Assembly: GCF_900109555.1 (NCBI RefSeq) | Contig: NZ_FNZV01000005.1 | Coordinates: 1 to 64,000 of the forward strand | Direction of reading: 5' to 3' | Source: Pacificibacter marinus | GTDB lineage: Bacteria > Pseudomonadota > Alphaproteobacteria > Rhodobacterales > Rhodobacteraceae | Length of the DNA: 64,000 bases | Shown here: positions 1-8,049 of the stretch, in pieces | Layout: each line of letters begins with the position of its first letter | Position numbering within the stretch: position 1 is the stretch's first letter | The notes under the pieces: generated by a model | What the model saw: only the letters and a program-made list of their open reading frames with translations | The model's database searches: none | What the model was told of the DNA's origin: nothing | Position numbers and translations under genes: made by a program

Positions 1-264
1 GAACGGCTTAACGTAAATCGCAGGGATGATCCGAGGCTCAAAACCCATCTTGCGCAAGGTGCGGCTGACAAAATGGGCGCTGAGGCAAGCCTCCATACCC
101 ACGATACAGCGCGGCAGCTGTTCAAAAGTCGCGACCAACGCTAGCCGCTTTATCTGCTTGCGCAGGACACGCTGTCCTGCCGGGTCGAAACCCACCAAAT
201 GAAATGTGTCTTTACCAATATCGATGCCAACAGACATCAGTTCATCAAATTCAATCTTCGCCAT
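1..264 (-). mobile_element. IS110-family transposase, N-terminal part, cut by window edge
   Basis: The 88 in-window codons encode the start of an IS110-type transposase/recombinase. The N-terminus reads MSVGIDIGKDTFHLVGF around residues 10-26, the RuvC-like beginning of the DEDD domain, with the first acidic residue at Asp15. A second motif, GMEACLSAHFVSR, lies near residues 65-77 and corresponds to the conserved Glu region. IS110 elements move by a RuvC-like transposase, in characterised members guided by a bridge RNA encoded in the element ends. The 3' part with the serine motif lies beyond position 1, so intactness cannot be judged. It sits 146 bp downstream of the RT gene, supporting a mobile-island setting. 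Confidence 0.85.
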
Positions 265-410
265 GCTACTTCTCCTATATGCAGGTGAAACTAAGCTCAG
301 TCTAACCTGCTGGGTGAAGCAGCCGGTACATCCCATTAGCCGACATTGGCCAGTGGTCCGGGATGCGGCAATGCAGCGCGTCAAACCGGACACTGCGGTC
401 CCCAAATTTC

Positions 411-1745
411 CTATTTTTCTGACTTCGCAATTCCTTGACGAAACATTTGTTCCGTTGATGGTAGTCCGCCGACACGTGCCTTTTGTTCATCTGACATTTT
501 GTCAGTGAGGCGCCTCACGGCGTTTCCAAATTCACTGGCCCGCTTTGAAATATAGGTATCCAAATCGGCGAACGGTTTTGCATCGGTGCAGAATGCATAT
601 GATTTTTGCCAGCCGTAAATCTTCCTCCCCAATCCGTCCAAAGTCGCGCTTGAAGCAAGCTTTGGGTCGAGATTCTTACCTTCTTGAGCGAAGGCTTTGA
701 TCGCGCGATGTGACATTGAAAGTGTTTCATTTACATCGTCTTTCAGCCGCTGAATTGATTGCGAACTCGGAACACATCTGTTGGGCTGCAGCGTGCAACC
801 CAAGAAACCGAATGACTGCGAACAATCTCCGGTTGCCGCTTTGTCAGAGCCTTTCGAGGGTTGGTAAAGCCTGAAGCCAAGCCGACCCAGATGGCTTTTC
901 GCCAAATCTATGGCTTTGCTAAGCTCAGAGGCGGTTTCAGACACGATAATAATGTCGTCGATGTAGCGAACAGCCGCCACATTTAGTTGATTGATTTCGT
1001 GGTCCATATCGAAGAGTAAAATATTTCCAGCAAATGCTGATAACGACGAACCCTGAGCGACCCCATGCCCGTTCGATGGAAACAAAGATGCGTAACCCTT
1101 GAGTTCCTCTGAGTTTGCCAAATGGACTTCTAGACCTTTCGCAAACAGGTCAGAAAGAGCATCGTCTTTCGTTTCGTCGCGAACGAATTTGATAACTGGG
1201 TCGACTGGAATGTCCGTAAAGAATGCTTTGATATCCGATCTATAATAGTGCTTGGCACCGTTATTCATCGCTCCCATTATCAGATCTATTGCCGGTCCGA
1301 CGCCGCCATATGGTTTGATTAGACCTCCAACTCCAAAAGCTGAGGTATTGACGTCATTGATTTTACCCAAGGCAGGGTCTCTTACCGTTTGGTGTCGCGT
1401 GTCTATATCACGGACATCACGGGCTGACCTTGGCTGAAGCACCTGTAGAATGGCTCGTTGTACAATTCTGTTTTTGAGCGTCGCAATGGCAATTGGGCGA
1501 GGGTCTTTCCCAACCTTCTCGCGGCTTTTTTGGTCAGCGAGAACGCCAAGAACTTCATCGAACTGGAATTTACCAGTGCGCAGCTGGTCAATACTGCGAC
1601 GAATATGCCGCTGGTGTTGATGTTCAAATTCCGCTGCTGCACCACGAATTTCTCCGTTAGCAGAATTCAATGCGCTGCGCTTTACATGTCGCCATGCGGC
1701 GAACATGTTACTTTCGGTTCGAACCCTGTCACACAGCTTGCCCAT
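411..1745 (-). CDS. Stand-alone reverse transcriptase (unclassified/DRT-like group)
   Basis: A 444-residue protein with a complete RT palm. The group II intron-like entry motif RPIAIATLKNRIVQ is at 83-96, motif A SDIKAFF at 170-176 (catalytic Asp171), motif B QGSSLS at 231-236, motif C YIDD at 261-264, and a thumb-side FLG at 314-316. There is no maturase zinc or endonuclease domain, so it is not a normal group II intron protein. It lacks the VTG signature of retron RTs, and motif B has QG rather than the SQ of diversity-generating RTs. This leaves the heterogeneous unknown-group/defence-associated RTs as the most likely home (inference). I chose the ATG at 1745 because GGAGAA lies 5 nt upstream; an ATG at 1799 has no such site. 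The upstream region holds a 132-bp perfect direct repeat. Neighbours are an IS110 and an integrase. Confidence 0.85.
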   Translation of the reverse strand: MGKLCDRVRTESNMFAAWRHVKRSALNSANGEIRGAAAEFEHQHQRHIRRSIDQLRTGKFQFDEVLGVLADQKSREKVGKDPRPIAIATLKNRIVQRAILQVLQPRSARDVRDIDTRHQTVRDPALGKINDVNTSAFGVGGLIKPYGGVGPAIDLIMGAMNNGAKHYYRSDIKAFFTDIPVDPVIKFVRDETKDDALSDLFAKGLEVHLANSEELKGYASLFPSNGHGVAQGSSLSAFAGNILLFDMDHEINQLNVAAVRYIDDIIIVSETASELSKAIDLAKSHLGRLGFRLYQPSKGSDKAATGDCSQSFGFLGCTLQPNRCVPSSQSIQRLKDDVNETLSMSHRAIKAFAQEGKNLDPKLASSATLDGLGRKIYGWQKSYAFCTDAKPFADLDTYISKRASEFGNAVRRLTDKMSDEQKARVGGLPSTEQMFRQGIAKSEK

Positions 1746-1799
1746 AGATATTCTCCGGTTCGGTCCCCCGTGCATGCACACCCGACCGTTGATAGGCAC

Positions 1800-1931
1800 T
1801 CATCCACTGCGCTCTGATATTCCGAGACTACAGACACCTTGGCAGCAAATGCCACTTCGGCGATGTCACCGTGACGCGCGATCCGCATGGACAGGGCCAG
1901 CTTCACGTCGGACGCCATCGAGACAATGGAC
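1800..1931. repeat. 132-bp perfect direct repeat, copy next to the RT gene
   Basis: This copy is identical base for base to 2152-2283, offset by 352. It ends 54 bp before the chosen RT start codon. On the minus strand it can be read as an open frame starting MASDVKLALSMRIARHG, continuous with an upstream hydrophobic start MCACVLAAASIV at 1957. Both copies lie in the same orientation upstream of the RT, separated by 220 bp of unique sequence. Function is unknown. Confidence 0.95.
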
Positions 1932-2151
1932 GCTGCGGCAAGTACGCAAGCGCACATGCCGGTTAGCCAGCTCCAAAGAGCCGGTTTTTCGGGGCAATTT
2001 CACACATTTCTCCGCCTTCCACCTTAAAGGTTTTTGGACGCTGTCAAGCGCTTTCCGCCCCGGCCCGGCCCGCCGCGTAGAATGCTTATCTGCTGCTTGG
2101 GGGCCAAAACTTAGGACACTCACAGCTTCAAGAGCAACGGTCAGGCTCAGG
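1932..2151. other. Unique spacer between the two 132-bp repeats
   Basis: This 220-bp stretch contains a GC-rich run near 2056-2080 and no convincing gene. A minus-strand frame of 134 codons crosses it from the distal repeat (2270-1866), but its C-terminal half has low-complexity basic composition. With the two repeats it forms the whole leader upstream of the RT and could encode a non-coding RNA partner (inference). Confidence 0.4.
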
Positions 2152-2283
2152 TCATCCACTGCGCTCTGATATTCCGAGACTACAGACACCTTGGCAGCAA
2201 ATGCCACTTCGGCGATGTCACCGTGACGCGCGATCCGCATGGACAGGGCCAGCTTCACGTCGGACGCCATCGAGACAATGGAC
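2152..2283. repeat. 132-bp perfect direct repeat, distal copy
   Basis: Identical to 1800-1931. On the minus strand the frame starting with ATG at 2270 is preceded by an in-frame TAG, so a protein here would begin inside the repeat. The two copies diverge abruptly at both ends, as expected for a duplication or for template and target copies of a retroelement. No adenine-specific differences are present. Confidence 0.95.
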
Positions 2284-2367
2284 TACCTTATACTATGGGT
2301 ATGCGACTCCACAATATCAAGATGGTGTTGGTGAATTTTTTGGAGCTCCCTCTTGGAGCCGGTTCAG

Positions 2368-2556
2368 TTAGGGTGCGTAAGGCGCACAAAGCGCCTTACG
2401 CCAATGGATCGAGGTGGAGAACGCCATCGCCGCTGCTACACTAACTCCTGCCGCCCAAACAGTATCAAAAAAATGGGTAACAATCGCAGTTGGTTTCGTC
2501 AGTAGTCGCTTTGTTTTGCAGAACTTCGTTTTTGAGTCTTCAGTCTTTTTGTCCAT
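2368..2556 (-). CDS. Small hypothetical protein with one membrane segment
   Basis: A 62-residue frame beginning MDKKTEDSKTKF, with AAGGAGA 5 nt upstream of the ATG at 2556, which is why this start is preferred over a longer frame from 2601. A charged N-terminal half is followed by a hydrophobic stretch VWAAGVSVAAAMAF around 34-47. I do not recognise the family. It lies upstream of the repeat and RT in the same orientation and could belong to that unit. Its 3' end covers an 11-bp perfect hairpin, which is odd for coding sequence, so the frame may end there by chance. Confidence 0.4.
   Translation of the reverse strand: MDKKTEDSKTKFCKTKRLLTKPTAIVTHFFDTVWAAGVSVAAAMAFSTSIHWRKALCAPYAP
2375..2401. 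other. Perfect 11-bp hairpin upstream of the RT leader
   Basis: Arms GCGTAAGGCGC (2375-2385) and GCGCCTTACGC (2391-2401) pair perfectly around the loop ACAAA. There is no adjacent T-run on either strand, so it is a poor intrinsic terminator. It lies 91 bp from the distal 132-bp repeat. It could be a structured RNA element, a cruciform or a protein-binding site. Confidence 0.7.
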
Positions 2557-2618
2557 GGCATTCTCCTTCAAATAGGTGTTTCCCAAATGAAAAACGGCCA
2601 AAAGAACGACAAGAACTA

Positions 2619-2643
2619 GCGCAACAGCAGGATTCGAACCTGC
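2619..2643 (-). other. tRNA T-arm-like fragment
   Basis: On the minus strand GCAGG-TTCGAAT-CCTGC (2643-2627) is a canonical T stem and 7-nt loop, followed by TGTTGCGC. No matching 5' acceptor strand, D arm or anticodon arm is visible upstream. It may be a decayed tRNA 3' end, such as an old attachment site, or a chance match. It does not match the tRNA-Cys at 4590-4663. Confidence 0.35.
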
Positions 2644-3043
2644 CCCGATCCCCGAAGGTCGAGTTAGTTCTGATATAGCTAGAGTAACTGATTATTTCAA
2701 GTGAACCTAAACAATGAAACTCCGTGTTCAGCGTGGCATCTAATGTCCGCTTCATAAAAATTAGCCCTAGACAAGCATGGCTGCAGCGTACTTCCGCTTT
2801 CCGCCCTTAGACTTCCGTGTTAGCATAAGGCGTCTAGACGCCCTTTTAAATTGCACCAGTGGGCTTCTCCCTTGACGTCCTAGCTGAGCTCGCCCTAGTG
2901 GGCGTCTGAAAGTTGCCAGTCCATTTTTCACGACACTTGACCACAAAGCGCCTCAACGCAAACCGCGCGCAACACAGCTCTGATCCTCCGTAGACCTCAA
3001 CTATCGGAGGAGGGTCGGGGCGTCCTATACACCCCCTTGTTCC

Positions 3044-3079
3044 TGTATACACTTACTGACACCCCAAAACTGAAACATT
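3044..3079 (+). repeat. Iteron-like 36-bp repeat, copy 1
   Basis: Begins TGTATAC and contains TGACACCCC, then TGAAACATT. It aligns with 3180-3215 at 28 of 36 positions without gaps. The spacing of 136 bp and the position upstream of the integrase suggest integrase arm sites or operator sites for the small gene at 3358. Confidence 0.6.
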
Positions 3080-3179
3080 TCAGCCATCAAATGCGAAGAT
3101 ATTGCGTCAAGTTATTTTTCCCATCGTTTCTTTTTTTTAAAAAAATACCCCGAAATGAGGAGAACAAAGCACGTTCCCT

Positions 3180-3215
3180 TGTATACGGTTAATGACACCC
3201 CCTGATTGAAATATT
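3180..3215 (+). repeat. Iteron-like 36-bp repeat, copy 2
   Basis: Begins TGTATAC, shares the block TGACACCCC with the first copy, and ends TGAAATATT. It lies 142 bp upstream of the small gene that overlaps the integrase. Confidence 0.6.
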
Positions 3216-3357
3216 AGCTAAATCTTAGCATTTAATTGTCAGGGAATCCGCCTCTGGCTATCTTTGTCCCAAGTTAGATTGCATGGGCGCTAGTGCACAT
3301 TCAGCCGAATGGATGCGCGAGCGAACTTGGACAAAGGAACCTGTAAGGTAAACCCAG

Positions 3358-3531
3358 ATGGCACAGACTACGATTGAACAAAAAGCACTACGCTTACTAA
3401 ACGCCTTTGAGCGCGCTGGAAAATCAGTTGGGCGTGTCACAGTTGACGGAAAAAAGATCGAATTGGTCTTGGTTGAACTTCCTACAGTCGATGAATTTGA
3501 GAGAGTAAATATGCGCCATGGCAAAACGTGA
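3358..3531 (+). CDS. 57-residue protein overlapping the integrase start
   Basis: ATG at 3358 with AAGG upstream opens a frame of 57 residues beginning MAQTTIEQKALRLLNAFERA, with an amphipathic N-terminal helix and then a short beta-like GRVTVDGKKIELVLVE. It ends at TGA 3529-3531, overlapping the integrase start at 3518 by 14 nt, which suggests translational coupling. I do not recognise the family. The size and position resemble small excisionase-like or regulatory proteins encoded just before tyrosine recombinases, but no helix-turn-helix is obvious. Confidence 0.6.
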   Translation: MAQTTIEQKALRLLNAFERAGKSVGRVTVDGKKIELVLVELPTVDEFERVNMRHGKT

Positions 3532-4528
3532 GCTTCCAAAACATGTATATCGGCAACGCAATGGCCTCTATTTCCAGAGGCGCGGCTGGCCTTCCTTAAA
3601 GTTCAAGCATGAGTTTGGCTCACCTGAATTCTGGCAGGAATACTCCGATATTCTTGCGGGAATGGTGAAGCCAAAAGTGGTAACGTCGCGGACCTTCAAA
3701 GCATTGGTTGCGAGCTACATTAAGTCTCCTCGCTATAAGAACCTCAAGCTGCGCACGGCATTGGATTACGACAAGTATCTAGAGTTCTTCATTTCGATCA
3801 TGGCAGATGCCAACCCTGCCAAAATGCAGCGTAAAGACGTTATTCGTTTACGCGATTCCAACGCAGAAAAAGCTTATTTCGCCAACTACTCCTTACGCGT
3901 CCTGCGTATATTAATGGAGCATTGCGTTGATTTAGGTTGGCGTGAAGCAAACCCTGCAAAAGGCGTGCCCGAAATTAAAACAAAGAAAACCGAGCGCAGC
4001 CCGTGGCCTCAAGAATTGCTAGAGGTCTACAGGGCGAGCTGTCCACTTGGTGGGCGTGAGCGTTTGGTCATGGAATTGTGCGTAGGGACAGGACAGCGCA
4101 TTGGCGATGTACTGGAGATGCGTTGGTCAGATATTCAAGATGGATCAGTTTTCGTTAAGCAAAATAAAACCAATAAAGAGCTTTGGGTTCCTATTCTGCC
4201 AGAGCTTCAAGTTGCACTGGATGCTGCAAGTCGCCATTCGGTATTTCTGCTCACTAATGAAAAGGGCACAAACCGCTGGTCCTATAGCGGCGCATCGCAA
4301 GCTGTTCGAAAAGTTAGAGAGGCGCTCAATGCGCTCGACTACGATATTCACAGCTGGCGCTATAACGCTGCCTGCGAATTGCTAGAGGCGGGATGTGATG
4401 ATGATCTCATTGCTGCCGTTACAGGGCAAAGTTCTGCGATGGTGAGTCACTACACCAAACAAGTTCGCCAGAAATATCGAGCACAACAGGCACAGCAAAA
4501 GAGAACGGAACAAAAACAGAATGTTTAG
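3518..4528 (+). CDS. Tyrosine recombinase (phage/island-type integrase)
   Basis: A 336-residue protein of tyrosine-recombinase architecture. An N-terminal basic region is followed by a core-binding helical domain (about 55-150) and the catalytic domain. Visible catalytic residues are Arg194 in TGQRIGDVLEMRW, His278 and Arg281 in HSWR, and Tyr312 in VSHYTK. The usual second His of the LGHSS motif is Gln304 (TGQSS), a variation seen in some integrases. It is read toward tRNA-Cys, whose 3' end begins 61 bp downstream, the classic arrangement for an element inserted at a tRNA 3' end. It overlaps the preceding 57-residue gene by 14 nt. It probably catalyses integration and excision of the island on the left. 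Confidence 0.92.
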   Translation: MAKRELPKHVYRQRNGLYFQRRGWPSLKFKHEFGSPEFWQEYSDILAGMVKPKVVTSRTFKALVASYIKSPRYKNLKLRTALDYDKYLEFFISIMADANPAKMQRKDVIRLRDSNAEKAYFANYSLRVLRILMEHCVDLGWREANPAKGVPEIKTKKTERSPWPQELLEVYRASCPLGGRERLVMELCVGTGQRIGDVLEMRWSDIQDGSVFVKQNKTNKELWVPILPELQVALDAASRHSVFLLTNEKGTNRWSYSGASQAVRKVREALNALDYDIHSWRYNAACELLEAGCDDDLIAAVTGQSSAMVSHYTKQVRQKYRAQQAQQKRTEQKQNV

Positions 4529-4589
4529 ACATTTGTTTAGACTTTAAATCATTGCTAGGCTCAAAGCCTTCTAAGTCATTGAAAGTAAA

Positions 4590-4663
4590 TGGAGGCGAGT
4601 ATGAGAATCGAACTCATGTACACGGATTTGCAATCCGCTGCGTAACCACTCCGCCAACTCGCC
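4590..4663 (-). tRNA. tRNA-Cys (GCA)
   Basis: The minus strand folds as a 74-nt cloverleaf: acceptor GGCGAGT/ACTCGCC, anticodon GCA at 4631-4629, T arm GAG-TTCGATT-CTC, discriminator U and an encoded CCA (4592-4590). Its 3' end faces the integrase gene, so it is the likely attachment site of the island. Confidence 0.95.
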
Positions 4664-4799
4664 TCGTTGTGGTTGAGCGGGGTTTATACCAAGGCTGTGG
4701 GGGGTGCAAGACGCCAAATGTATCTATTCGCATGTTGCCGAAAGCCGCGCGATATGGCACTAACGCAAAGATTCCTATGTGAACGAAAGAGTTCAGCTC

Positions 4800-5453
4800 A
4801 TGACAGATTTTGCAAAACTTCGCACCATGATGGTCGACACGCAGGTGCGCCCCTCTGATGTGACCAAATTCCCAATCATTGAAGCGATGCTGACAGTGGC
4901 GCGCGAAAACTTTGTGCCAGCAGCACAGCGCGAGGCGGCTTATGTTGGGGAACATGTTGTCCTTGGCGACCGCCGCGTTGTTTTGGATCCGCGTGTGCTT
5001 GCCAAAATGCTTGATATTCTCGACATCCAAAACGACGAATTGGTGCTCGATATCGGTGTTGGCCTTGGATATTCGTCTGCCGTGATTGCGCGCATGGCGC
5101 AAGCTGTGATTGCTGTTGAAAGCAACGAGGCTTGGGCGTCCGATGCCGCAGCTGCATTGTCTGATGCCGGTGCTGATAATGTTGTTGTCGAAGTGGCCGC
5201 TTTGGCTGCTGGCGCACCGCAGCACGGGCCGTATGATGCAATCGTTTTGCAAGGAGCAGTAGAAGACATTCCTGCTGCAATTTTAGACCAAGTTAAAGAT
5301 GGTGGACGCATTTGTGCAATTTTCCTTGATGGAAGTCTTGGAATTGTGCGTATGGGGTACAAGATAAAAGGGAAGTTCACGTGGCGCATGGCGTTCAACG
5401 CGACGGCGCCTGTGCTTCCTGGTTTTGAAGCGGAGCGTGCATTCGCGCTGTGA
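4800..5453 (+). CDS. pcm: Protein-L-isoaspartate O-methyltransferase family protein
   Basis: A 217-residue SAM-dependent methyltransferase of the PCMT family, which repairs isoaspartyl residues in aged proteins by methylating them. The SAM-binding motif I is LVLDIGVGLGYSSAVIARM near 80-98, preceded by the family hallmark of a target-binding N-terminal region (MMVDTQVRPSDV). The ATG at 4800 matches the usual start of alphaproteobacterial homologues; a GTG at 4779 would add seven residues. The strict PCMT substrate motif is weak, and members of this branch may have a different substrate. It is followed 60 bp later by tolC, a linkage common in roseobacters. Confidence 0.85.
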   Translation: MTDFAKLRTMMVDTQVRPSDVTKFPIIEAMLTVARENFVPAAQREAAYVGEHVVLGDRRVVLDPRVLAKMLDILDIQNDELVLDIGVGLGYSSAVIARMAQAVIAVESNEAWASDAAAALSDAGADNVVVEVAALAAGAPQHGPYDAIVLQGAVEDIPAAILDQVKDGGRICAIFLDGSLGIVRMGYKIKGKFTWRMAFNATAPVLPGFEAERAFAL

Positions 5454-5513
5454 CGTTGGGATAACGCTTGGGGTTAAAACTGCCACAGCGTTCAAATAAA
5501 TTAAGGCAGGCAA

Positions 5514-6881
5514 ATGCGAATAACCTTTGGCATAAAACGAACCATTACAGCGAGTCTTTTGGCTCTTGGAACAGCGATTACACCTTTGGCGCTTTCGGCC
5601 GAAACTTTGGGTGATGCACTGGCATCTGCGTATAAAAGTTCCGGCTTACTTGAACAAAACCGTGCCAACCTGCGCGCAACAGACGAAGGCGTGGCATCGG
5701 CTTTGGCTGGGATGCGACCATCGCTTGGGTACAGTGCCAGCAGTGGGTATTCGTCGACCACCGAAGAGTGGACGAACGCGTTGACGTTTTCTGCCAGCAT
5801 GACTGTGTTCACTTTTGGCCGTAACAAACTTAACGTGGATGCGGCAAAAGAAACCGTTTTGGCGACACGTGCCTCTTTGGTTTCTATTGAACAAGACGTG
5901 CTTGGAGATGCCGTATCTGCCTATATGGATGTGCGTTACAATGAAGCGCAGTCCAATTTGCGCCAAAACTCTGTGCGGTTGATGCAGCAAAACTTGCGCG
6001 CCGCCAAAGACCGCTTTGAAGTCGGTGAAATCACACGCACTGCGGTTAGCCAAGTTGAGGCCCAATTGGCCACAGCCCGCGCGCAGCTTGCCGCAGCGCA
6101 AGGTCAAGTGACCGCGTCACGTGAAAGCTATAAAGTGGCTATCGGCAATTACCCGTCAAAATTATCCAGCCCCCCCACCGTTAAAAACCCAGCACGCTCC
6201 GCAGACGAAGCTGTGCGCATTGCAACCAGTGGGCACCCAGCGATTAAAGCGCTGCAACACCGCATTGCGGCACTTGATCTCGCTGTCGAGATTGCAGAGC
6301 GCGGTCTTTTGCCAACTGTTTCCGCCAGTGCATCGCATAAGATCAGCGAAGGGGACGAGACGGATGCCTTTGGTTTGACTGCAAGTGGGACAATCTATGC
6401 GGGCGGACAGCTTTCTTCCTCTATTCGCACAGCAATGGCCAACCGCGATGCTGCACGGGCGAATTTGCACACAACTGCGCGCCAGATCGAGCAAGGCGTG
6501 CGCACCGCGTGGTCTATGTTGACTGTGACTCGTGCATCATCTGAAGCAACCGCCGCATCGGTGACCGCCCAGCGTGTGGCCTATCAAGGTGTGAAAGAAG
6601 AAGCCGAACTTGGTGCCTCCACAACGCTTGATGTTTTGGAAGCGGAGCAAGATTTGCTTGATGCACAAGTATCTGCCATTCAGGCGCGCATCGATAATGA
6701 AAGCGCCGTTTTCTCATTGCTCAGCGCGATGGGGCTTTTGACTGTAGATCACTTGAAACTCAATGTGCCTGTCTATGATCCTGCAGCCTATTACAACGCA
6801 GTGAAAACAGCGCCAACGCGCTTTGTTAGCCCTGAAGGCGATAAGCTTGATCGTGTCTTGCAGGCGCTTGGCCGCAACTAA
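5514..6881 (+). CDS. tolC: TolC-family outer-membrane efflux protein
   Basis: A 455-residue protein with a signal peptide (MRITFGIKRTITASLLALGT, cleavage likely after the Ala-rich LALSA near 29). Two structurally repeated outer-membrane efflux domains follow, rich in the long coiled-coil helices typical of TolC (for example RFEVGEITRTAVSQVEAQLATARAQL and EEAELGASTTLDVLEAEQDLLDA). It forms the trimeric outer-membrane exit duct used by type I secretion and RND/ABC efflux pumps. The start has AAGGCAGG upstream. It follows pcm and precedes a PopZ-like gene after a terminator at 6905-6935. No partner pump is adjacent. Confidence 0.92.
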   Translation: MRITFGIKRTITASLLALGTAITPLALSAETLGDALASAYKSSGLLEQNRANLRATDEGVASALAGMRPSLGYSASSGYSSTTEEWTNALTFSASMTVFTFGRNKLNVDAAKETVLATRASLVSIEQDVLGDAVSAYMDVRYNEAQSNLRQNSVRLMQQNLRAAKDRFEVGEITRTAVSQVEAQLATARAQLAAAQGQVTASRESYKVAIGNYPSKLSSPPTVKNPARSADEAVRIATSGHPAIKALQHRIAALDLAVEIAERGLLPTVSASASHKISEGDETDAFGLTASGTIYAGGQLSSSIRTAMANRDAARANLHTTARQIEQGVRTAWSMLTVTRASSEATAASVTAQRVAYQGVKEEAELGASTTLDVLEAEQDLLDAQVSAIQARIDNESAVFSLLSAMGLLTVDHLKLNVPVYDPAAYYNAVKTAPTRFVSPEGDKLDRVLQALGRN

Positions 6882-6904
6882 ATCGGTGTCACAATTTGGC
6901 ATTA

Positions 6905-6935
6905 AATCCGCTCAGAGGCTCTGGGCGGATTTTCT
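6905..6935 (+). terminator. Intrinsic terminator after tolC
   Basis: AATCCGCTCAGA pairs with TCTGGGCGGATT with one G-U pair around a GGC loop, followed by TTTCTATTTG. Confidence 0.75.
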
Positions 6936-6996
6936 ATTTGTTGTGTGTCGAGGCGAAGCTGTCTACCATTGACAGTAGAATTTTAAGGGAATCGGA

Positions 6997-8049
6997 ATGT
7001 CTGATCCAATGACAAATATGGGCGCGGATGACGTGCTTGCGTCAATCCGCAGGTTGGTGTCAGAAACGTATGATCCAAAGCTGCGTCAGAAAACACCCGA
7101 ACGCGTGCCTGATCGTTTGGTTTTGTCGCCAGATTTGCGTGTTGTCGAGGGCCGCAGCGATGCGTCTGTTTTCGTGGAACAAAGCGATCCCCAAGCAAAG
7201 CCAGCACCGACTGCGGCGCCGTTCATGCTGAAAACGCAAGTTGCAAAAGACGCTCCTGTTGGGGACACAGTGCAAAAACCGGTAAAAACGCAGTCTGATG
7301 GTGCTGGGACTGCTGATGCACTTTTTGAGACGATGAACGCCAAAATCGCAGCGTCGTCGGAGCAAGAGAACGATAGAGACGCGACCAAGGCGGCACCGTT
7401 TACGATAGATGCCAAACTGGATGTGCAGAGCCAAAAGTGGCCTTCGGAATTCGATGATATTCCAAATGCACAGGCTGCAGATCATGCGGCCAAACTGTCG
7501 CTTGAGCAGCGTATTGCAGAACTTGAAAGCGCAGTTGAATCGCAGGTTCAAGATTGGGATTCCGATGGATCTGACGATTTCGACGATGCTGCAGCGCATG
7601 GGGTTTCACAGGCTTTTGCCCAGTCTGGCGCGCGCGTTTTGAATTTTCGCAGTGCAGAGCTTGCTCCTCATATTCAGCCTGCGCCAGCAGGTAGTATAGG
7701 TCACACTGCAACGCCAACCACTGTGTTTGAGGATGCAGTAAAGGCCGAGACACACGTTTCAGATGATTTGCATCGTACGCTGGATCGCACGGTTCAGGCC
7801 GATCATAACACCAACATACCAGTGCCTGAAACGCAGGACGATGCCCTACAGGGGCCTGTTGACGATGACTTGCCGCTTGCAGGTTATTCAAGTGACGAGT
7901 TGCTTGATGAAGACACGTTGCGCGACATGGTGACCGATGTCATTCGTCAAGAATTGCAAGGCGCTTTGGGCGAACGCATCACGGCTAACGTGCGCCGTTT
8001 GGTGCGCCGCGAAGTGCGGCGTGCGATGACCTTGCGTGAATTCGACTGA
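6997..8049 (+). CDS. DUF2497/PopZ-like protein
   Basis: A 350-residue acidic, low-complexity protein with conserved ends. The N-terminus carries DDVLASIRRLVSE, the short helix typical of PopZ/DUF2497 proteins. The C-terminus has LDEDTLRDMVTDVIRQELQGALGERITANVRRLVRREVRRAM, resembling the oligomerisation helices. The middle is rich in Asp, Ala and Pro. In Caulobacter, PopZ is a polar scaffold that anchors ParB and chromosome origins. In roseobacters the equivalent protein is much diverged, and its role there is inferred only. AAGGGAA lies 6 nt before the ATG. It converges with cobQ with directly abutting stop codons. Confidence 0.8.
   Translation: MSDPMTNMGADDVLASIRRLVSETYDPKLRQKTPERVPDRLVLSPDLRVVEGRSDASVFVEQSDPQAKPAPTAAPFMLKTQVAKDAPVGDTVQKPVKTQSDGAGTADALFETMNAKIAASSEQENDRDATKAAPFTIDAKLDVQSQKWPSEFDDIPNAQAADHAAKLSLEQRIAELESAVESQVQDWDSDGSDDFDDAAAHGVSQAFAQSGARVLNFRSAELAPHIQPAPAGSIGHTATPTTVFEDAVKAETHVSDDLHRTLDRTVQADHNTNIPVPETQDDALQGPVDDDLPLAGYSSDELLDEDTLRDMVTDVIRQELQGALGERITANVRRLVRREVRRAMTLREFD

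Follow-up and report, generated by a model that had tools for sequence, protein, structure and literature searches.

A twin-repeat leader before G2L4 reverse transcriptase genes as a possible template RNA for the enzyme

The stretch analyzed here (64,000 nucleotides [nt] of Pacificibacter marinus contig NZ_FNZV01000005.1, positions 1 to 64,000; hereafter the window) carries on its minus strand a reverse transcriptase (RT) gene at 411-1745, with the ATG at 1743-1745, whose leader contains the same 132-nt sequence twice. An earlier note on this DNA had described a perfect 132-bp repeat, its copies 220 bp apart, upstream of the start of an orphan RT. Sequence comparison bore out the repeat, its coordinates, its separation and its position. 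The word "orphan" was only partly right, as a small reading frame overlaps the second copy and a tyrosine integrase and a tRNA-Cys gene adjoin. In RT sense, the leader runs from copy 1 (A) through a spacer (B) to copy 2 (A'). Its features, all on the minus strand, are as follows.

2292-2320, minus: promoter-like site preceding copy 1 (TTGATA, 17 nt, CATAGT), the best weight-matrix site, with a predicted start at most 2 nt from A
2152-2283, minus: copy 1 (A), the earlier of the two repeats in RT sense, 100% identical to copy 2
1932-2151, minus: spacer B, 220 nt, with a promoter-like site, a start codon, the AAAAAC motif and predicted hairpins; aligned with four relatives
2021-2047, minus: promoter-like site in B (TTGACA, 15 nt, TAAGGT), the best weight-matrix site in B
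2005-2007, minus: ATG of a short frame, MCEIAPKN, ending at AAA AAC; relative to it, the membrane frame is shifted by -1
1967-1989, minus: AAAAAC motif and directly following predicted hairpin, with a two-sided change in 2 of 7 hairpin pairs among five loci
1682-1957, minus: small membrane-protein frame (ATG at 1957) running through A', with one transmembrane helix predicted from hydropathy
1800-1931, minus: copy 2 (A'), identical to copy 1, encoding the part of the small protein after the membrane helix and showing codon-level selection
1761-1788, minus: hairpin-like sequence 5' of the RT ribosome-binding site, conserved in an alignment of nine window-related leaders, its pairing judged by eye
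411-1745, minus: G2L4 reverse transcriptase, 444 amino acids, with YIDD and AQG motifs, identified by structure and profile matches

The two copies were identical at 132 of 132 nt, with their starts 352 nt apart, and chance is far excluded as the source of such a match. Within the 3.87-Mb assembly the repeat matched two places only, both of them the copies themselves, which rules out a genome-wide element. Assembly error is unlikely to account for the pair in general, since the same layout recurred in a one-contig genome (locus L031, genome G300), in a two-contig genome (L072, G931) and in a plasmid record called complete (L021). Known RNA families found in positions 1-8000 of the window were limited to tRNA.

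Among solved structures, the window RT best matched a group II intron-like 4 (G2L4) RT (E = 2e-50; next RT, 1.2e-6), and a six-member profile reached E = 1.7e-130 against the G2L4 structure. The corresponding scores were 175 bits for the window protein alone and 439 bits with the profile. The best named UG profile in PADLOC was UG17, at 120.9 bits without applying the PADLOC threshold and with a best stretch covering residues 158-412 only. UG17 is the DRT10 group (PMC12632851; papers cited by PMC number are represented here by excerpts of their text). As this match is partial and weaker than that to G2L4, UG17 membership was rejected, and the solved-structure search settles the family: judged from its sequence, the window RT is a G2L4 enzyme. 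The AQG motif was present in all 16 G2L4 loci compared below, and YIDD stood at the active site in 15 of them, the window included; both motifs have been described for G2L4 (PMC4244168, PMC12337344). The earlier observation of QG rather than SQ thus held, the window motif being AQG. At the RT3a insertion site, which in G2L4 comprises 9 amino acids with paired arginines, alignment by eye showed RR in L021 and a 2-residue gap without the arginine pair in the window and its near kin. The RT of L073 is near the crystallized G2L4 enzyme (E = 5.6e-223), and the RTs of L071 and L072 are 78 to 80% identical to that of L073. A C-terminal RNase H was found in one of four RTs scanned, that of L031 (3966-5669), where a G2L4 RT with FIDD replacing YIDD is fused to a ribonuclease HI domain.

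Relatives were gathered by protein search of genomes, plasmids and viral contigs, and counts refer to the 16 separate G2L4 loci whose leader could be read. Loci whose contig stops in or before the leader (L033, L034, L037, L075), a locus with the same leader as L038 and a contig of the same length (L077) and duplicates of counted places (L001, L002, L004, L005, L022-L024, L040, L053, L054, L056-L070, L078) were left out. Alignment with homologous RT loci, a check proposed in the earlier note, showed that the pair recurs: the order A, B, A', RT, on the same strand and directly 5' of the RT, was found in 14 of the 16 (the window, L003, L021, L031, L032, L035, L036, L038, L039, L055, L071, L072, L074 and L076), while L030 and L073 have a single copy. 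As the pair recurs in a set whose RT identity falls as low as 28%, the recent recombinational duplication offered earlier as one source of the repeat is rejected. Repeat length ranged from 120 to 142 nt, B from 218 to 262 nt and start-to-start spacing from 346 to 382 nt, except in L074 (B of 351 nt, spacing of 485 nt), whose spacer contains an internal duplication of 103 to 106 nt repeating the AAAAAC start region. Repeat ends were set by script, and a repeat-finding tool draws some of them longer (137 nt in L021 and 138 nt in L039, both 99%). A direct repeat longer than 41 nt occurred in none of 22 other RT loci scanned likewise over 571 to 1500 nt upstream, four of which are copies in one genome.

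Some further sequences came up in these scans. Perfect direct repeats of 37 to 41 nt, spaced 71 to 272 nt, lie upstream of other RTs in L006, L009, L011 and L014 and are possibly CRISPR arrays. Two Rhizobium plasmids carry single partial matches to the repeat (L028, 3501-3624; L029, 3501-3580), with no RT listed within 7 kb around them in a gene table that is incomplete; they look like remnants. Single-sequence queries of viral contigs yielded no further relatives, and other scans returned known records only.

Within a locus, A and A' were 95 to 100% identical, and 10 of the 14 pairs were fully identical as trimmed; the other four had 7, 4, 1 and 1 differences (13 in total). Between diverged loci, A was at most 87% identical, among the listed identities, all above 60%; close pairs were L021-L039 (100%), L071-L072 (99%) and L035-L076 (94%). 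Because the likeness within loci exceeds that between diverged loci, the comparison indicates that A and A' evolve together and that their likeness is maintained rather than recent. In eight locus pairs picked by hand, A and B each exceeded the nucleotide identity of the RT gene in every pair; for L021 and L039, A was 100%, B 97% and the RT gene 78% identical (54% at third codon positions). The 60 nt preceding A were less alike than A in all eight pairs, so conservation begins about where A begins.

The leader also encodes a small protein. The 19-residue hydropathy maximum of the frame that runs from AAAAAC into A' was 1.62 to 2.55 in all 14 loci with a pair, with other frames at 1.27 or less; the window values were 1.83 in the membrane frame and -0.41 and -0.13 in the other two. 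In the codon test of A, the synonymous share of single changes in this frame was 0.53 in the window group (6 loci) and 0.52 in the Pseudomonas group (4 of 5 loci, L074 omitted), compared with 0.07 to 0.29 in other frames, and a third-position excess was also seen with all 5 Pseudomonas-group loci. This pattern indicates that A is under coding selection. For the helix part, the window-group test (0.45 versus 0.29 and 0.20) favors coding as well. Frame length was dropped as evidence because shuffles often reach it and the antisense frame is often longer (in 4 of 10 loci): per 1000 shuffles, the tandem-frame length through A was reached by 19, 276, 26, 430, 51, 263, 189, 277, 380 and 244 in the 10 loci. 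Pfam gave no match for four small window frames and one L021 frame, nor did PHROGs for the two repeat frames searched.

Candidate expression signals recur across the 14 loci with a pair; they were scored with promoter weights and a Shine-Dalgarno string, with no shuffle control. The predicted start before copy 1 lies at most 3 nt from A in 7 loci and farther off in the other 7, and in 11 the top-scoring site in B combines a TTGAC-type -35 with a 15- to 16-nt spacer. Every locus has a start codon in the AAA AAC frame, 12 or 18 nt upstream of that motif, and 12 of the 14 have a Shine-Dalgarno match of at least 4 nt at that start, a count without chance control. An ATG at -4, able to start the membrane frame directly, occurs in 7 loci, the window not among them. 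AAAAAC and its hairpin are a candidate programmed -1 frameshift site.

The leader is best read as a template because its nucleotide sequence is conserved, none of the other RT loci scanned has it and it encodes a small membrane protein: A-B-A' would be the cognate template RNA of the G2L4 RT, a tentative reading to which we give slightly less than an even chance (about 0.48). A noncoding RNA template for a defense RT was one of three readings proposed earlier and is the best fit among them, the block being conserved as nucleotides and sharing its A-B-A' form with DRT10. The RNA would start at or near A, and the RT would bind it and then copy A', B and A. The end of the complementary DNA (cDNA), the complement of A, would realign on A', and repeated copying would yield tandem (A-B)n DNA. 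A would thus need to pair with A', which would explain why the two are kept identical. In DRT10, an A-B-A' template is repeated through such realignment, and A-A' homology is required for repeat addition (PMC12632851); in DRT2, a gene is made from concatenated cDNA (PMC12039810, PMC11100668). The strong strand annealing by the G2L4 enzyme (PMC12337344) also favors the template reading. As each (A-B) unit holds a promoter-like site, a start and the membrane-protein frame, the product would multiply a small gene, whose protein would by analogy with DRT2 and DRT10 be an effector, most likely in phage defense. The RNase H domain of L031 would serve strand transfer. Among nine neighboring proteins hand-picked from seven loci, without a background rate for defense matches, five from four of the loci (two in L071, one each in L072, L073 and L076) matched restriction-modification or candidate-defense models, the restriction-modification matches being type I.

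Several observations weigh against this template reading. Four of the nine neighbors had no defense match, including an L021 protein annotated as TIR, and the defense-like neighbors may only mark mobile islands. Repeat addition by DRT10 was undetectable with a B of 20 nt (PMC12632851), whereas B here measures 218 to 351 nt, and an A of 130 nt far exceeds what realignment needs. L030 and L073 keep an open RT frame with a single A, and the end-joining role of G2L4 was published without such an RNA, as far as the excerpted text shows (PMC12337344). In favor of the reading, consensus folds of A and B beat column-shuffled controls within the window group and the Pseudomonas group (z of -6.4 to -9.3), but column shuffles flatter similar sequences and are a generous control. 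B of five loci showed two-sided changes in 12 of 57 predicted pairs. All 14 loci together had hardly any common fold (-0.5 kcal/mol for A, -6.6 kcal/mol for B). Shuffles folded as well as window A alone in 20 of 200 cases, no advantage for A, and as well as window A-B-A' in 2 of 100, only a modest one. Finally, the codon test of the helix part did not support coding in the Pseudomonas group (0.24 versus 0.28 and 0.31).

A further proposal, which we consider doubtful, is that only the tandem (A-B)n product of the G2L4 RT would encode the full protein. The helix start lies in B before A', and the C-terminal part would lie in B after copy 1; realignment over 130 nt would join the two, and a -1 ribosomal frameshift at AAAAAC would gate translation. 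Divided by 3, unit length leaves a remainder of 1 in 13 of the 14 loci (8 different lengths); L074 (485) leaves 2, or likewise 1 if 106 nt of its duplication are discounted. Such a constant remainder would be expected if the reading frame of copy 1 were important as well, with the whole gene present only in the tandem product. The same offset between the start and helix frames in all 14 loci also favors this proposal. The L031 frame after copy 1 weakly resembles the A-coded domain of the window group (6.7 bits, 3 of 60 shuffled sets higher; in a further comparison, E = 9e-4 versus 0.32 reversed). However, the second-best match, L055 at 5.6 bits, fell within the shuffle range, and the 7 loci with an ATG able to start the helix frame need no frameshift. 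Over the 100 nt that directly follow copy 1, codon tests were not significant (0.32 versus 0.28 and 0.21 in the window group; 0.30 versus 0.27 and 0.34 in the Pseudomonas group). Farther along B the window group gave 0.37 versus 0.16 and 0.20, but that stretch overlaps the promoter-like site. The joined proteins of the two groups did not match each other (E = 0.41 versus 0.21 reversed), and profile comparison of the part after copy 1 alone gave no alignment. If the proposal holds, an RT now classed with DNA repair would in fact be a defense enzyme that assembles a gene.

The main rival to a template RNA is a recombination switch, unlikely in our estimate, in which crossing over between A and A' would delete or amplify A-B and so turn the membrane-protein gene off or up, with the RT a passenger or acting on the recombining ends. 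It keeps this place because, in the comparisons that matched best, L030 and L073 look like A-A' deletions. The 42 nt leading up to the lone A of L030 matched the window copy-1 side at 22 of 42 positions, reached by 0 of 5000 shuffles, and the end of B at 14 (690 of 5000); those of L073 matched the L071 copy-1 side at 19 of 42 (13 of 5000) and the end of B at 15 (150 of 5000). Three of the five comparisons (L030 with L036 and L035; L073 with L072) showed no clear copy-1-side match, however. Close long direct repeats recombine readily. G2L4 has itself been linked to end joining (PMC12337344). On the other hand, a switch leaves unexplained both the nucleotide conservation of B and of the stretch after A' and the confinement of the pair to G2L4 among the RT loci scanned.

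Comparably unlikely is a standard operon whose RNA leader is conserved, in which membrane protein and RT would be co-expressed and the leader not copied by the RT; A would be a regulatory and coding segment, its duplicate kept alike by ordinary gene conversion. The membrane frame is indeed contiguous in the genome across B and A', with its own promoter-like site and start, and the Pseudomonas aeruginosa record (L021) annotates it as a hypothetical protein (4723-4917). Were the second copy useless and unstable, however, rapid loss would be expected, whereas it is kept in 14 of 16 loci, and copy 1 has no helix start, which lies in B.

A diversity-generating retroelement (DGR) or other copying from template (copy 1) to target (copy 2, at the end of the small gene), also raised earlier, is rejected as very improbable: two repeats of DGR-like length stand beside an RT and one lies inside a reading frame, but 10 of 14 pairs are identical, the 13 differences are not adenine specific (only 2 fall on an A in copy 1, and 3 on an A in copy 2) and the RT belongs to G2L4, with AQG. 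A mobile element of the long-terminal-repeat type is not supported, both repeats lying on the same side of the RT.

The RT locus probably sits in an integrated island, since a tyrosine integrase (3518-4528, plus strand) stands beside tRNA-Cys (4590-4663, minus strand). Imperfect 36-nt direct repeats (78%; 3044-3079 and 3180-3215) precede the integrase. Upstream of copy 1, a 62-amino-acid frame (2371-2556, minus strand) has a hydrophobic stretch by eye and a weak PHROGs match (E = 0.023) to a family of unknown function. Beyond the 3' end of the RT gene, positions 1-264 (minus strand) hold the start of an IS110-family transposase, with a Pfam score of 24 bits, under the curated cutoff of 29. In L021, a record described as a plasmid, the region upstream of the RT (396-3918) holds dapA, bamC and purC, genes expected on a chromosome.

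In the literature searched, including the excerpted text of PMC12337344, PMC13015716, PMC4244168 and PMC8934634, no earlier report of the repeat leader was found; Simon and Zimmerly 2008 and Park 2022 lay outside the search. In the excerpted text, G2L4 is presented as an RT domesticated for host DNA repair, with a link to DNA end joining, strong strand-annealing activity and the ability to extend short homologies (PMC12337344). The twin-repeat leader suggests that the enzyme uses this leader RNA as a template, in the manner of defense RTs. If a conserved template-like leader and a small membrane protein accompany G2L4 genes, the DNA-repair role needs re-examination.

The G2L4 enzyme of PDB entries 9d5x and 9d4s belongs to the same protein family as the window RT and shares YIDD and AQG with it; it is treated as a free-standing, domesticated DNA-repair enzyme, and repeats or a leader RNA are not mentioned in the excerpted text (PMC12337344). 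DGRs resemble the window locus in having a pair of repeats, each about 130 nt long, next to an RT but differ in their adenine-specific changes and in RT family. With DRT2 (neo), concatenated DNA carrying a small protein gene would be the common feature; DRT2 units are divisible by 3, free of stops and read antisense to the noncoding RNA (PMC12039810, PMC11100668), whereas here 13 of 14 units leave a remainder of 1, one leaves 2 and the frame is in RNA sense. DRT10 combines a UG17 RT, a noncoding RNA and a SLATT protein. No SLATT gene was found by Pfam in the four window and one L021 small frames, a search that a short, divergent protein could escape. The RT here is G2L4, with UG17 still its best named UG profile in PADLOC. 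What DRT10 and the G2L4 leaders share is the A-B-A' pattern, as a sequence pattern only and at a far larger scale here: A is 2 to 4 nt in DRT10 and 120 to 142 nt here, and B is a few nt there and 218 to 351 nt here. If the template reading is correct, the A-B-A' principle of DRT10, which has been compared with telomerase (PMC12632851), would also hold for a group II intron-like RT, whose repeat exceeds that of DRT10 in length by a factor of about thirty or more.
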